Made by a program: the position numbers and the translations under genes. 64,000 nt of DNA from Nesterenkonia halophila (GTDB taxonomy: Bacteria; Actinomycetota; Actinomycetes; Actinomycetales; Micrococcaceae), in the NCBI RefSeq assembly GCF_009467795.1, contig NZ_WIAX01000007.1, forward strand, positions 1-64,000. The letters are read 5' to 3'. The notes beneath the pieces were generated by a model. It saw only the letters and a program-made list of their open reading frames with translations. It was not told where the DNA came from and searched no databases. This document shows, piece by piece, positions 4,847 through 10,481 of the stretch (position 1 is the stretch's first letter; each line of letters opens with the position of its first letter).

Positions 4847-5845
4847 GTGGCCAGCGAGGACGTTGCACGCGAGAGCCGGCCGAGCGCGGGCGCGGGCGAA
4901 GCGGCCCATCAGGCCGCCGAGGCGGCCCGCGGATCCTCCATCCTGGACAGCATGGACGGGTCGTCGCCGCTGGGCGCCGAGCTGGCCGACGAGCGGCGCC
5001 GCCGTCAGGCGCTCTCCGAGACGGAGCTCGAGCGCCCGGAGACGACGCGGACCATCACCGTGTCGAACCAGAAGGGCGGCGTCGGCAAGACCACCACGAC
5101 GGTGAACATCGCCGCCGCGCTGGCCGCCCAGGGCTTCAACGTACTGGTCATCGACATCGACCCGCAGGGCAATTCCTCGACGGGACTGGGCGTGCCGCAC
5201 TCGGCCGACGAGGAATCGGTCTATGACGTGCTCATCGACGATCTGGCCTTCGCCGACGTCGTGACCGACTGCCCGGACATCGAGCGGCTGCAGGTCGTCC
5301 CGGCGACGATCCACCTGGCCGGTGCGGAGATCGAGCTGGTCTCGCTGGTCGCGCGCGAGCAGCGGCTGCAGCGGGCATTGGACCAGTACCACCGGTACCG
5401 AGAGGAGCAGGGCGAGGAACGTCTGGACTTCGTGTTCATCGACTGCCCGCCGAGCCTGGGGCTGCTGACGGTCAATGCCTTCGTCGCCGCGCAGGAGGTT
5501 CTCATCCCCATCCAGTGCGAGTACTACGCGCTGGAGGGGCTGAGCCAGCTGCTCAACAACATCCAGATGATCCAGAAGCATCTGAACCCGCCGCTGACGG
5601 TCTCGACGATCCTGCTGACGATGTACGACGGACGGACCCGCCTGGCCGCGCAGGTCGCCGAGGAAGTGCGCGAGCACTTCCCGGATGCCGTGCTGGAGAC
5701 GCTGATCCCGCGCAATGTGCGGATCTCCGAGGCGCCGTCCTACCAGCAGAGCGTCATCAGCTATGACCGCGGCTCCACCGGAGCGCTGGCCTATCTGGAG
5801 GCCGCCGCCGAGATCGTCGCGCGCGGCGAGGAGGCCGGCCGCTGA
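4847..5845 (+). CDS. parA: Chromosome partitioning ATPase ParA (Soj-like)
   Basis: 332 residues from GTG 4847, which has GGAGGGAAGG (4831-4840) upstream. A poorly structured N-terminal extension of about 66 residues precedes TITVSNQKGGVGKTTTTVN with the deviant Walker A lysine. VLVIDIDPQGN (Walker A') and FVFIDCPPSLG (Walker B) follow. ParA dimers bind DNA non-specifically in the ATP state and move ParB-parS complexes. A strong terminator lies 48 nt downstream, so parB is not simply co-transcribed. The two genes are unusually far apart (about 2.3 kb). Confidence 0.96.
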   Translation: MASEDVARESRPSAGAGEAAHQAAEAARGSSILDSMDGSSPLGAELADERRRRQALSETELERPETTRTITVSNQKGGVGKTTTTVNIAAALAAQGFNVLVIDIDPQGNSSTGLGVPHSADEESVYDVLIDDLAFADVVTDCPDIERLQVVPATIHLAGAEIELVSLVAREQRLQRALDQYHRYREEQGEERLDFVFIDCPPSLGLLTVNAFVAAQEVLIPIQCEYYALEGLSQLLNNIQMIQKHLNPPLTVSTILLTMYDGRTRLAAQVAEEVREHFPDAVLETLIPRNVRISEAPSYQQSVISYDRGSTGALAYLEAAAEIVARGEEAGR

Positions 5846-5892: not shown

Positions 5893-5942
5893 CGCCCTCC
5901 CGTGCTCGTCGGATCATCGACGGGCACGGGAGGGCGTTTCTC
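5893..5942 (+). terminator. Rho-independent terminator after parA
   Basis: A perfect 13-bp stem CGCCCTCCCGTGC (5893-5905) / GCACGGGAGGGCG (5924-5936) with further pairing inside the loop (CGTCG/CGACG) is followed by TTTCTCGT. It should end transcription from parA before the parS array. Confidence 0.85.
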
Positions 5943-6326
5943 GTCTGCGCCCATGCCGTGCTCCCCTGTGCAGAACGCGGGCGTCGGAGCGCCGGGCGAG
6001 GAGCGTGTCCCCGCGCATCGGTCCCTGGGCCGGGCCTCGGGCGGGGGTGTGGTGAGGCGGCGACGACGACGGCAGCGATGGAACTGACGGTCCTGTCGAT
6101 GCCGGAGGAACCGGCCACGGACGAACCATGCGGACACGATGAGGTCGATCATCGCATGAGCGACTGACCTGGACCGGTGAACACAAGTGGCCTATGCCCA
6201 CAGTATGTTCATCGACGACTCCTTGTTCAGGGCGAGGGGAAATGTTCAGGACTGTCTGTCCAGTCAGGCGTGATGCGCGACACGCTGAAGGAAGCGTGCT
6301 CCGTGCCCCGTCGCCGGAGGGGGAGC

Positions 6327-6387
6327 TGTGGAGGAATCCTGTGGATAATTCCTGTGGACAGCGTCTGTGGAGAATGGGTGTGGATAA
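6327..6387 (-). other. DnaA-box array, five units with exact 13-bp period
   Basis: TGTGGA begins at 6327, 6340, 6353, 6366 and 6379, all in the same orientation. The nonamers are TGTGGAGGA, TGTGGATAA, TGTGGACAG, TGTGGAGAA and TGTGGATAA. On the minus strand units 2 and 5 read TTATCCACA, a perfect DnaA box; units 3 and 4 are one base from TTGTCCACA or TTATCCACA. Direct repeats of this kind favour ordered DnaA binding. Whether this is oriC or a titration/regulatory site cannot be decided here. Confidence 0.75.
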
Positions 6388-6487
6388 GGCGGCCGGGCGA
6401 TGTGCGTTCATGTGCGGAGTTCCCGACTCTCACTCCGGGAGAGGTGCTCACCCGATAGGCGCCGGCCTCGGTCGGGTCGGGAGTAGA

Positions 6488-6503
6488 GGTTTCACGGGAA
6501 ACA
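6488..6503. other. parS-like site 1
   Basis: GGTTTCACGGGAAACA, two differences from the consensus TGTTTCACGTGAAACA (positions 1 and 10). Confidence 0.75.
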
Positions 6504-6737
6504 TCGCCGGCACCGGAGCAGGGTTGCACCGGAACCGCACCGGCATTGCCTCGGCATCCTGCGCCGGTCCCCTGCCCTCGACGTCGACACGTCCTGCGGC
6601 CCAGAATCTCCCTGGTACCCCTGGCTCTCCTGGCACTCCTCGCACCCCTGAAGTTCCGCATCTCCAGGCTGGCACGTGTCGCCGCACCGTCCACCACCTG
6701 AAAGAGCCTCCCGATGCGCGGCAGCGGAGACGGTATG

Positions 6738-6753
6738 CGTTTCCCGTGAAACA
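6738..6753. other. parS-like site 2
   Basis: CGTTTCCCGTGAAACA, two differences from consensus (positions 1 and 7). Confidence 0.78.
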
Positions 6754-7062
6754 CGCAGAAAGGTGTCGATGCGCGCACGCCGCGGTGCGCAGCGTGCGAA
6801 GGAGTCTCCATGGAGGCGCTCTCCGGGGCAGGAATCCTCGTGCCGCGGGGACGGCTTGCAATGGCCCTCGCGCCGATGAGGGGATCCGATCCCGGGGATC
6901 GCCCGCAGGGAGGTGTGGCGTGTGATGCCCGGGAGCCAGGCTTGGATCAACCTGCAGCCCTGGAGACGCGCCTCGTCGACGCTCGCCTCGTCTGCAGAGG
7001 CGGCGACGCCGCTCCAGGCAGGCGTACTTCGGGTCGTCGTGCCTCAGCGCATGCAGACCCGA

Positions 7063-7078
7063 CGTTTCCCGTGGAACG
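7063..7078. other. parS-like site 3
   Basis: CGTTTCCCGTGGAACG, four differences from consensus; one of the weakest sites, but in phase with the general 200-300-bp spacing. Confidence 0.6.
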
Positions 7079-7254
7079 CCGACCGCACTGGTGATCGGAA
7101 GGTGGTGAGCCCTCATCGTGTCCAAGTCGTCGCCTCCCGAGGCTCGTGCGTCGGGGCGGACAGAAGGTGGACACGAAGGTGGATGGCGCGGGCACGAAGT
7201 GACTCCGCAGCGCGGAGAGAGGATCCGCTGTGACGGTGACACGGACGTCGGACG

Positions 7255-7270
7255 TGTTTCACGGGAAACT
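7255..7270. other. parS-like site 4
   Basis: TGTTTCACGGGAAACT, two differences from consensus (positions 10 and 16). Confidence 0.75.
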
Positions 7271-7529
7271 TGCGGCGGTCGAGCGATCAGTCGGCATGTG
7301 GCGTCCGGCGATGGCATGGTGTGGTGCCTGATGGACTGCCACTCTGCTCGACACCGTCAGGGAGACGGCAGAAGCGGGTGAGAACCGCCAGCTGGGCGAC
7401 GGTGACTGCACAAGGACTAGGACGTACCTGGGCGTCTCACAGATCGGCATGGTGCTCCTGTTGGGCGCCGGCGGGTCTGGTTCCGCACTGCCCGGGCCGT
7501 CGTCGGTGCGAGCCGAGAGACAACTCGTA

Positions 7530-7545
7530 TGTTTCTCGTGAAACA
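7530..7545. other. parS-like site 5
   Basis: TGTTTCTCGTGAAACA, a single difference from consensus (position 7). Confidence 0.85.
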
Positions 7546-7739
7546 TCGTCACTGAGAGCGACGCGAGGACGTGGCGACCCCTCCTCCGGACCTCGAGTCG
7601 ATCTGTCGAGCTGCATGGTGGTCGCCCGCGCGATGCTCTGCCCGATCGGCTCATTCCCCGCGACGCAGCGCTCCGGGGTGCCCGGTCTTCGGATTTCTCG
7701 GCACCCGGCAGGAGACGGTGGTGAAGGGAGCACGACGAG

Positions 7740-7755
7740 TGTTCCACGTGGAACA
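7740..7755. other. parS-like site 6
   Basis: TGTTCCACGTGGAACA, a perfect 16-bp palindrome with the symmetric T-to-C/A-to-G change at positions 5 and 12. Confidence 0.85.
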
Positions 7756-7974
7756 GAAAGTCTCGTTCGAAGAGGGCTCGACCAACGCCGCCGGTCGCCG
7801 GCGTGCATCTCCGGATACAACTGCTTTCTCGCGGCGAGCTCCCCCGGGAGGATCCTCCACGGGATCGCTAGTGGGTGAAGGCGGTGGGCGCCGGGCTCCT
7901 TCCCAAATGGGGTGGACGATGGATGCGTCGCTCGGCACGCCCGAGCGCTGCCCGCACACATTCGCGGCGGCCTG

Positions 7975-7990
7975 CGTTCCACGTGAAACA
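7975..7990. other. parS-like site 7
   Basis: CGTTCCACGTGAAACA, two differences from consensus (positions 1 and 5). Only 46 bp (start to start) from site 8. Confidence 0.8.
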
Positions 7991-8020
7991 GTCCATCCGC
8001 CGACCTCGAGCCCGACGTCG

Positions 8021-8036
8021 TGTTTCCCGTGGAACG
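8021..8036. other. parS-like site 8
   Basis: TGTTTCCCGTGGAACG, three differences from consensus. It lies 100 bp before the parB start, just upstream of the candidate parB -10, so ParB binding here could repress its own gene. Confidence 0.7.
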
Positions 8037-8075
8037 CCGTGGACAGAAAGTGCGCAGCTGTACAGCTTCGGTCTT

Positions 8076-8081
8076 TAGAAT
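8076..8081 (+). promoter_or_regulatory. Candidate -10 element of the parB promoter
   Basis: TAGAAT lies 55 nt before the parB ATG and 40 nt after parS-like site 8. No clear -35 is visible. Because a terminator follows parA, a separate parB promoter is expected here. Confidence 0.5.
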
Positions 8082-8136
8082 GGAGGAGTTGTCGACCGGG
8101 ACGGTCGGTCCGGGCTCAAGAAGGTGGAGGGACTCC

Positions 8137-10017
8137 ATGACAGAACGGAAGCGGCGAGGGCTGGGGCGCGGCCTCGGTGCGCTGATCAACAGTGATGGCC
8201 AGGAGGCTGAAGAATCCAGGGCGACGGCGCACGCCGTCGAGCCGGAGGCGCCGGAGAATGTTTCCCGTGAAACACCGGTGGATGCCGCGGAGACGCTGGA
8301 TGCCGGCTCCGACGAGGGCGGTCCGGAGGCCACGGCGGCCGATCCGTTCGAGGGAAGCTCCACCACGACGCAGGAATCGGCGGATGGCGAGCCTGCTTCC
8401 CTGCCTGAGGACGAAGACGCCGCCGTCCCCGAGGAGCAGCCGGAAACCGACGAGCACGCGGGCTCGAACCACGAGGCCCCGGAGGACGGGACGGACGTCC
8501 TCGACGATGGTTCGAACGACGCATCGGACGGAGCCGTCGAGACAGTCGATAAGGTCGAGACGAGAATCGGCGTCGAGGCGCCGGAACGCCCGATCGACGT
8601 CTTCTTCTCCGCCAAGTCGCATCTGGACACGCAGCGTGTTTCACGTGGAACCGCTGGATCCAGCACACGCACCACGACGAGTCGCCGCGGCCGGGGCAAC
8701 GGCCGAGTGGAGATGCCGGACGTCCTCGGCGATCGCGCGCGGAGGAGTCCTCATTCTGCAGTGAGCACGGAATCGGCGCCCTCGGCAGCCTCGGCAGAGG
8801 TCGCCCGGACGGGTGAGACTGCCGAGGCCGCGGTAGCGTCCGAAGTTCCGTCACCCGCCGAGCTCGAAGAGTCGTCGGCAGAGAGCACGACCAATGGCTC
8901 CTCGACCCCGGAGGCGCAGGGCCCCGCTGAGACGGCTGAGAAGGCTTCTGCGCCGAAACGGACGAAGCGGACGAGGAAGAGCTCGATCCCTGAGGCGGCG
9001 GCCTCCCAGAGCGCGCACACTGACGCTGCGATCTCTGAGGGCGGATCCGCGAGCGACGTCACGACGACAGAGGCGGCGACGAGCGCGTCCGCGGCGCAGA
9101 CTAACGGTGTCTCCCCGATCGAGAGGCCGGCTCCTGCGGCCGCGGCGGCAGACGATGTTCCACGTGGAACGGACGGCGCCGTCGGCGGAAGCGTCGACGG
9201 CGCCGAGTTCCGGTCGGTCCGCGTCGAAGCGATCGTGCCGAACCCTCGCCAGCCCCGGCAGGAGTTCGACGAGGAGGACATGGCCGAGCTCGTGCACTCC
9301 GTGCGCGAGATCGGTGTCCTGCAGCCGATCGTCGTGCGGCGGATCGCTGACGATCAGTACGAACTGGTCATGGGCGAACGTCGGTGGCGTGCCTCGAAGG
9401 CGGCGGAGCGGACCGAGATCCCCGCCATCATCCGTGCGACCGACGACATCGACCTGCTCCGCGACGCGCTGTTGGAGAACATCCACCGCTCCGAGCTCAA
9501 TCCGCTTGAGGAGGCTGCCGCCTATCGGCAGCTGCTCGACGACTTCCGGTGCACTCAGGATGAGCTCGCCACGCGCATCGGCCGGTCTCGTCCGCAGATC
9601 AGCAACACGCTGCGTCTGATGAAGCTGCCTCCGGGCGTGCAGCGGCGGGTGGCGGCCGGTGTGCTCTCCTCCGGCCATGCGCGGGCGCTGCTCGGTCTCT
9701 CCACGCAGGAGCAGATGGAGGAGCTCGCTGCGCGCATCGTGGCAGAGGGTCTATCCGTCCGGGCGACGGAGGAAGCCGTGACGATGATGCAGCAGCCCCA
9801 GAAGGAGACTGACGTTTCACATGAAGCGGCGACCCGGCTCCCGTCGAACACGCGCTATCAGCAGCTCGACGAATACGCCGATGCGCTCACCGACCGCCTC
9901 GATACGCAGGTCAAGATCACCCTGGGTGCGCGTAAGGGCCGGATCGCGATCGACTTCGGCTCCATCGAGGACCTGCATCGGCTGATGGAGATGATCGGAC
10001 AGTCCACCAGCAGCTGA
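8137..10017 (+). CDS. parB: Chromosome partitioning protein ParB with a greatly expanded N-terminal linker
   Basis: 626 residues from ATG 8137 (GGTGGAGGG upstream), about twice the usual size. Residues 1-17 carry the conserved ParA-contacting tip with [12 protein letters not shown]. Residues about 18-357 are a low-complexity acidic Ser/Ala/Glu/Thr linker. The ordinary ParB core starts near 358 ([14 protein letters not shown]), with the CTP-binding motif GERRWR at 413-418, [14 protein letters not shown], a helix-turn-helix at about 471-492 ([18 protein letters not shown]) and a C-terminal dimerisation region. Three good parS sites (8259, 8637, 9156) and one weak site (9813) lie inside the gene, all in the same frame, encoding V-[S/P]-R-[E/G]-T or VSHEA. 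ParB loads at parS, spreads as a CTP-dependent clamp and is moved by ParA. Confidence 0.95.
8259..8274. other. parS-like site 9 (inside parB)
   Basis: TGTTTCCCGTGAAACA, one difference from consensus (position 7). Translated in the parB frame as N-V-S-R-E-T. Confidence 0.85.
8637..8652. other. parS-like site 10 (inside parB)
   Basis: TGTTTCACGTGGAACC, two differences from consensus (positions 12 and 16). Translated as R-V-S-R-G-T. Confidence 0.8.
9156..9171. other. parS-like site 11 (inside parB)
   Basis: TGTTCCACGTGGAACG, three differences from consensus but with a 14-bp perfect palindromic core. Translated as D-V-P-R-G-T. Confidence 0.8.
9813..9828. other. Degenerate parS-like site 12 (inside parB)
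   Basis: CGTTTCACATGAAGCG, four differences from consensus, two of them in the core. Translated as D-V-S-H-E-A near the C-terminal domain. It may be a decayed or fortuitous site. Confidence 0.35.
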
Positions 10018-10070
10018 TGCCTCCCCGGCGGCCGATCGCCCGACCGTCGGGGAGGGCCGGCCCGGATGCA

Positions 10071-10110
10071 CGAAGGCCCCGGATCCGCCATCGCGGATCC
10101 GGGGCCTTCG
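10071..10110. terminator. Bidirectional terminator between parB and trxA
   Basis: A perfect 17-bp stem pairs 10071-10087 with 10094-10110 around a 6-nt loop (CCATCG). The half-stem begins CGAAGGCCCCGGATC. parB and trxA converge on it, so it probably serves both. Confidence 0.85.
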
Positions 10111-10125
10111 TCGTGTGTCGCGTGG

Positions 10126-10141
10126 GGTTTCACGTGGAACC
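10126..10141. other. parS-like site 13
   Basis: GGTTTCACGTGGAACC, three differences from consensus, two at the outermost bases. It lies in the parB-trxA gap and closes the array. Confidence 0.7.
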
Positions 10142-10154
10142 CCCGGAGGCCGGG

Positions 10155-10481
10155 TCAGCCGAGGAAGTCGGCGAACTCCTGCTCGAGGGCCTGCTTCGGC
10201 TTGGCGCCGATCGAGGAGATGACGTGCTCGCCATCCTTGAAGCCGTAGACGGCCGGGATCGAGGTGATGCCGAACTTGGCGGCCGTGCCCGGGTTCTCGT
10301 CGACGTTGAGCTTCACCACCTCGAGAGACTCGGGGTTCTCGGTCGCCAGCTCCTCGAGGATCGGGGTGAGCATGCGGCACGGGCCGCACCACTCCGCCCA
10401 GAAGTCGACGATGACCGGCTTGTCGGCCTGGAGTACGTCCTGGTCGAAGCTGTCGTCGGTGACACTCTTGAGATCTGCCAT
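10155..10481 (-). CDS. trxA: Thioredoxin
   Basis: 108 residues, a full-length thioredoxin. It has the active site W31-C-G-P-C35 and the cis-proline in TSIPAVYGF (about residue 76). It reduces protein disulfides in the cytoplasm and is recycled by TrxB, encoded 41 nt upstream in the same transcript. The ATG has AAAGGA upstream. Promoter control is expected through the redox-type promoter in front of trxB. Confidence 0.96.
   Translation of the reverse strand: MADLKSVTDDSFDQDVLQADKPVIVDFWAEWCGPCRMLTPILEELATENPESLEVVKLNVDENPGTAAKFGITSIPAVYGFKDGEHVISSIGAKPKQALEQEFADFLG

Follow-up and report, generated by a model that had tools for sequence, protein, structure and literature searches.

In Bacillus subtilis spo0J, one parS site lies within the parB coding sequence. 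The portions of the published sources drawn on here describe further layouts: ten parS sites over 35 kb, 9/10 of them intergenic, in Corynebacterium glutamicum (PMC7083940); 22 chromosomal parS sites in 3 kb in Myxococcus xanthus, where a fragment binds ParB in vitro (PMC3899335); and centromeres bound by the replication initiator, DnaA in Caulobacter crescentus and RctB on chromosome II of Vibrio cholerae (review PMC6399470, describing Mera et al. 2014 for Caulobacter). Noc-binding sites (NBS) are distinguished from parS by a C at centre position 6, and R173 and G201 are the residues of Noc/ParB specificity (PMC7383237). Here we analysed a 64,000-nucleotide stretch of Nesterenkonia halophila (contig NZ_WIAX01000007.1, positions 1 to 64,000; the window), in which an array of parS sites occupies the parA–parB region. 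We read it with high confidence as the chromosomal ParABS centromere of this Nesterenkonia species, with twelve clustered parS sites, next to which lies a row of predicted DnaA boxes.

The sites were scored against the consensus TGTTTCACGTGAAACA, the core pattern GTTYCNCGNGRAAC, a looser core pattern GTTYCNNNNGRAAC and a weight matrix trained on 218 sites from other Nesterenkonia. A preliminary description of this DNA had listed thirteen parS-like sites; 11/13 lie within three mismatches of the consensus, against an expectation of 0.02 in the window. The core pattern matched twelve places in the entire assembly (2,188,008 bases, 65.5% complete), every one of them within the array at 6489–10140, and its reversed control matched none. 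Likewise, 500 dinucleotide shuffles of 6401–10200 yielded zero core matches. The looser pattern added one place on a different contig, as many as its own reversed control gave. In the weight-matrix ranking of the window, the twelve core sites took ranks 1–12 (20–27 bits), the site at 9813 came thirteenth with 11.0 bits, and the next place scored −4; for that reason we call the site at 9813 degenerate, and the list of thirteen is reduced to twelve core sites plus this one. An intact parS reading EADVSRETADR occupies the equivalent position in the sister species, Nesterenkonia sp. F (G024), and the site at 9813 is best read as a decayed copy of it.

Eight sites lie in the 2,291-bp parA–parB gap, as the preliminary description had counted, three and the degenerate one lie in parB, and one (10126) lies between parB and trxA; parA contains no parS site. 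Alignment of the gap with Nesterenkonia sp. F revealed that its eight cores are identical at 12–14 of 14 bases (mean 94.6%), whereas the 1,257 other 14-mers of 6500–8000 had a mean identity of 42%, none reaching 12/14, and none of 100,000 random sets of eight 14-mers matched the identity of the gap cores. The preliminary description was right in seeing a very compact centromere-like array, and the array is unique within the assembly.

The genes around the array are those of a chromosomal origin region. In the window, rpmH, rnpA, yidC and rsmG come before parA, and trxA and trxB (the latter assigned from its oxidoreductase domain) follow parB on the opposite strand. In Nesterenkonia relatives with both genes on one contig, dnaA lies 5–13 kb from parB, and in the sister species it ends 12.4 kb from the parB core. 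Compactness of this kind resembles plasmid centromeres, and the preliminary description had accordingly judged the array closer to plasmid parS arrays than to a typical chromosomal layout; but rsmG and yidC stand upstream of parA in 20/20 loci examined, the parS sequence is the chromosomal consensus, and ParB is present in 129/129 genomes of the family with a best match of at least 59% identity. With chromosomal neighbours in the window and in all of these loci, rather than the setting of an extrachromosomal replicon, we rejected a plasmid-type partition array on an integrated element or megaplasmid, a reading to which we give practically no credence.

Enrichment of sites close to TGTTTCACGTGAAACA at parAB is also what a ParABS centromere predicts, with the qualification that none of the twelve is a perfect palindrome. 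When aligned with Noc, ParB carries R opposite a Q of Noc and G opposite an R; in our reading these would be the equivalents of R173 and G201 in the portion of PMC7383237 used here, and would confer parS-type specificity. Six of the 12 sites resemble NBS in having, in one half, the NBS-type C at centre position 6. They differ from NBS as described there in that 12/12 cores keep the outer G and form a single cluster. A Noc/NBS system was discarded on the basis of the outer G, the one array and the ParB-type residues; NBS itself was not searched.

In vivo, ParB would bind the sites and segregation would depend on them. ParB dimers would load at the twelve clustered parS sites and spread as cytidine triphosphate (CTP) clamps, ParA would move ParB, and ParB would help to load SMC, the loading and motor steps being taken from the family. 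Some observations weigh against this reading of the locus. The assembly is 65.5% complete and lacks dnaA, the contig beginning before dnaA would be reached, so that further sites may lie in the missing part; among Nesterenkonia relatives at least 93% complete, total cores exceed those of the par locus by at most three. In addition, none of 28 further Nesterenkonia genomes searched has the strict 13-bp row of DnaA boxes described below.

Compactness, which had been put forward as the unusual feature, is usual among relatives. Core sites occur in 57/58 genomes (our own plus relatives; 2–14 apiece), and 56/57 loci around parB carry 2–12 sites over 0.5–7.4 kb, with none in G041. The class set (108 genomes, 40 loci fetched, 37 resolved; a few belong to the order or the family) contained 12 genomes with at least 12 core sites, namely 8/9 of family f34 (22–31 sites), G117 (12), G128 (13), G153 (21) and our own. 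The M. xanthus array is a precedent for a very compact chromosomal array, but according to the parts of PMC3899335 consulted it lies about 4 kb upstream of parA, parA and parB are co-transcribed, and no site is inside parB. C. glutamicum shares ParA, ParB and a cluster of several 16-bp parS sites to one side of oriC, as far as PMC7083940 was drawn on; here, by contrast, a 3.65-kb stretch holds 12, both between and within the par genes.

Location in the parA–parB gap is far more restricted. It was found, with at least one parS site, in 27/27 Nesterenkonia (gap 63–3501 bp, 1–9 sites; G006, without ParB, and the unresolved G016 and G025 excluded), in 3/6 other genera of the family (G030, G032, G034) and in 0/19 other-family genomes of the order (three unresolved ones dropped). 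In the class it was found in 2/37 resolved loci, with one site each, a count that includes G072, whose parB start is plainly wrong (gap −1980). Within Nesterenkonia, a longer gap goes with more sites (rho 0.80, 27 genomes, relatedness uncorrected). Another genus of the family is represented by L197 (G173), where six parS sites separate parA from the parB core, with no DnaA row there. What distinguishes the present locus is therefore not compactness but three other features: parS sites split parA from parB, some sites are coded in parB, and a row of DnaA boxes adjoins the array.

The occurrence of parS inside parB recalls B. subtilis, but here the sites number 2–4 cores per gene, lie in linkers, and were found in 27/28 Nesterenkonia with a resolved start (G025 had none; the unresolved G016 and G006, without a ParB match, were left out). 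All of these sites are in a single frame, reading VSRET, VSRGT, VPRET or VPRGT, and wherever a V[SP]R[EG]T peptide occurs in Nesterenkonia ParB, a parS core encodes it (73/73). In seven window genes, GTT, TCA, CGT and GAA make up 1%, 0.8%, 6.5% and 10%, respectively, of the codons for their amino acids, which gives the four together a chance of about 1e-6, and the S/P and E/G amino-acid changes coincide with two degenerate parS positions. Since the rare codons occur throughout and the changes fall at degenerate parS positions, the DNA site rules the peptide: some parS sites are embedded in linker codons of parB, where selection on parS at the DNA level fixes the VSRET-type peptide. A peptide control outside parB was uninformative, because 29 of its 30 peptides were parS-encoded and probably represent array sites.

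That these peptides are kept for protein reasons, the DNA match being a by-product, is extremely improbable. Such a view could appeal to the one reading frame shared by all Nesterenkonia parB sites and to the stop in one of the three consensus frames, which narrows the choice, but it does not account for rare codons without exception at VSRET-type peptides or for amino-acid changes that track the degenerate parS positions. Moreover, these cores are also present in the gap, which is not translated, and in three genomes from other families (G036, G044, G050) they occur in parB in a different frame, which reads FTGN.

The row of five DnaA-box cores lies about 100 bp from parS 1, outside the array, and the phased row probably binds DnaA. 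Compared with Nesterenkonia sp. F, its core bases are identical at 30/30 positions, the spacers at 13/28 and the flanks at 115/200. Among 2,000 shuffles of the gap, four reached five cores and none had three at a 13-bp period. The strict 13-bp triple was present in 3/58 genomes: that of the window, the sister species and G030, where it lies at a single location remote from par. The segment 6165–6260, located between the parA hairpin and the row, exhibits 72% identity to the sister species and contains some of the lowest GC in the gap; by eye, it carries one TGAACA and three TGTTCA, spaced about 20 bp, as possible regulator sites.

In a survey of 129 family genomes for same-strand cores spaced 11–14 bp apart, a row occurred somewhere in 32 (41 match rows; one match in the reversed control), and in 13 of those 32 it lay within 3.5 kb of the parB core (18/41 rows). 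These par-linked rows span five genera (g7, 5/5; g97, 4/4; g29, 2/6; g93, 1/3; Nesterenkonia, 1/6 sampled). In 10/13 genomes the row falls within the stretch covered by the parS array, 3′ of parB, with trxA found beyond it in 8/10. In the other three it stands clear of the array, by about 100 bp in the window, about 0.9 kb for G220 and about 1.1 kb for G196. Box orientation relative to parB is the same in 12/13, G196 being the exception. A similar six-core row lies 735 bp from the ten-site array of G045, a member of another family. As points against a general rule, 116/129 family genomes have no row near parB under the strict pattern and 97 have none at all, 23/41 rows are elsewhere than near par, and in the class set, where 24/108 genomes have a row somewhere, only G000 and G059 have one within 3.5 kb on the parB contig. 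Several genomes have rows 5–10 kb upstream of parB, and these probably represent clusters of the dnaA region. Further rows lie about 46–48 kb (g108: G183, G276) and about 14 kb (g6: G034, G212, G232) downstream of parB, other members of these genera differing or having the row on another contig, and family f33 (G099, G110, G129, G138, G156) has DnaA-box triples about 13–26 kb from parB.

The pairing of parS array and DnaA row recurs even though the location of the array differs: in Nesterenkonia it separates parA from parB, and in other genera it follows parB. We propose tentatively, and short of expecting it, that the centromere of this family can be composite, a parS array plus a helically phased, same-orientation DnaA-box row, embedded in the array or adjoining it, on which ordered DnaA assembly would couple replication initiation to origin segregation; DnaA on the row may tie initiation to the centromere or to parB. 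The row may instead regulate parB transcription or titrate DnaA, as in the DARS and datA models, without relation to centromere movement. This alternative is a genuine but uncertain possibility. In the window the row indeed follows the parA hairpin and precedes parB, and the phased rows far from par fit it as well. However, because the row is downstream of parB in 12/13 par-linked family genomes, a function common to these genomes cannot be control of the parB promoter; this argument does not bear on titration.

A third reading, which equates the gap with the replication origin (oriC) and takes the parS sites as attached to it, is very unlikely. It is suggested by the five DnaA cores in a 58-bp stretch of the gap, by the gene that precedes rpmH in the contig, which is of the TetR family and not dnaA, and by base composition, since GC in the gap reaches its minimum (50% in 60-mers) at 6200 and 6327, positions that adjoin or coincide with the row. 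In the sister species, however, dnaA and dnaN are about 12 kb from parB and the dnaA–dnaN intergenic region has its own DnaA-box cluster. The minimum of the cumulative GC skew, from noisy curves in two relatives, falls 7 kb from dnaA in the sister species (100 kb analysed) and 2–4 kb from it in G003 (160 kb), and 14–19 kb from the par gap. In these two relatives the skew minimum is nearer to dnaA than to the gap, the row is missing in 28 other Nesterenkonia, and the row is probably not oriC.

Like the Caulobacter centromere, the parS region here has predicted DnaA boxes, but in this case they are phased same-strand cores at a 13-bp period, known from sequence, in a different phylum (compared with the part of review PMC6399470 used). 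A literature search limited to the titles and abstract openings of the matches listed, with the parS survey of Livny et al. 2007 outside its scope, found no published description of a composite ParB/DnaA layout; within the same scope, searches on parS in coding sequence and on parS in Brachybacterium, Arthrobacter, Micrococcus and Nesterenkonia found no description of the layout. The composite arrangement, as predicted, would be the most novel part of this locus.

The perfect palindrome GTTTCACGTGAAAC accounts for 146/218 sites across other Nesterenkonia. It accounts for 0/12 in the window species, 1/11 in the sister, 0/7 in G008, 0/6 in G003 and 0/7 in G028. The fraction of perfect sites drops with locus GC (rho −0.70) and with third-position GC (rho −0.65; both 29 genomes, relatedness uncorrected). 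Altered ParB specificity was discarded as the cause of the imperfect sites, the recognition-helix stretch being identical in four clade members; one fixed difference lies elsewhere in the HTH domain, at residue 522, which is S in 4/4 clade members, whereas the 24 others have E, K, D or Q. In G003 and G008 (L081, L044), all 13 parS sites are one asymmetric variant, GTTCCACGTGAAAC, in both orientations.

Coordinates of the features are collected in Table 1. The best seven named relatives of ParB are all from Nesterenkonia, with 95% identity to Nesterenkonia sp. F. The protein has a GLGRGLG motif at its start, then a long low-complexity linker, and ParB_N, HTH_ParB and ParB_C from about residue 357. 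The terminator scan found one candidate against 1.4 expected in shuffles; the one found, after parA, has the 20-pair maximum that the scan counts. It recurs in the same place in the sister species (37/44 bases identical, −47.9 kcal/mol), and other Nesterenkonia have weaker hairpins after parA or none standing out. The inverted repeat 3′ of parB was absent from the scan output. Because the 77 bases before parB are almost unchanged in the sister species, parB probably has its own promoter just upstream of its start; a sigma-70 scan found no consensus promoter. Since the parA–parB gap of this genus contains parS sites, parA would here end at its own terminator-like hairpin and parB would be expressed from a promoter of its own where the array ends, and the two genes look uncoupled.

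A structured RNA was discarded, as the sole Rfam match around the parB hairpin, and on it, was MIR1846 at 24.4 bits, under the cut-off of 77.5. A hidden gene in the gap was also discarded: translated matches to the sister species occur alike in all six frames, as plain DNA similarity would give, so there is no conserved reading frame. Among neighbouring genes we also presume yidD and jag. The usual adjacency of dnaA and rpmH is broken both in the window, where the TetR-family gene lies at 2–580, and in the sister species (L112, 7225–9864), where an ABC ATPase gene and an unassigned neighbour stand between rpmH and dnaA, adjoining dnaA. In the draft contig of G008 (L044; gap 1,118 bp), parA is split over two reading frames, perhaps through sequencing error.

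Table 1. Features of the parA–parB region, in window coordinates
Feature	Coordinates	Strand	Sequence or content	Basis
parA	4847..5845	+	332-amino-acid open reading frame, Walker-type ATPase	Pfam AAA_31, 7.6e-59
Terminator-like hairpin after parA	5893..5936	+	20 pairs, then TTTCT	
Row of five DnaA-box cores, exact 13-bp period	6327..6387	-	TGTGGA on +, TCCACA on -; two perfect TTATCCACA	
parS 1	6488..6503		GGTTTCACGGGAAACA	consensus and core match
parS 2	6738..6753		CGTTTCCCGTGAAACA	consensus and core match
parS 3	7063..7078		CGTTTCCCGTGGAACG	4 mismatches to consensus, core intact; 20.2 bits
parS 4	7255..7270		TGTTTCACGGGAAACT	consensus and core match
parS 5	7530..7545		TGTTTCTCGTGAAACA	consensus and core match
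parS 6	7740..7755		TGTTCCACGTGGAACA	consensus and core match
parS 7	7975..7990		CGTTCCACGTGAAACA	consensus and core match
parS 8	8021..8036		TGTTTCCCGTGGAACG; about 100 bp 5′ of parB start	consensus and core match
parB leader (probable promoter / 5′ untranslated region)	8060..8136	+	conserved	74/77 bases identical in sister species
parB	8137..10017	+	626 amino acids	Pfam domains; NCBIfam parB_part, 1.4e-56
parS 9	8259..8274		in parB, codes VSRET	core match
parS 10	8637..8652		in parB, codes VSRGT	core match
parS 11	9156..9171		in parB, codes VPRGT	core match
Degenerate parS	9813..9828		parB C-terminal linker, codes VSHEA	11.0 bits, rank 13
Long inverted repeat 3′ of parB	10070..10111		probable terminator between convergent parB and trxA	by eye
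parS 12	10126..10141		between parB and trxA	consensus and core match

In the GC-rich species of one genus, the centromere thus loses its perfect palindromes without any change in the recognition-helix stretch of ParB. The locus also shows a bacterial centromere embedded in the linker-coding DNA of the protein that binds it, with the DNA of the site dictating the peptide. If DnaA binds the row, there would be a direct link between the start of replication and chromosome segregation in Actinobacteria, a link so far described, in the part of the review drawn on, for Caulobacter and, with another initiator, for V. cholerae chromosome II (PMC6399470).

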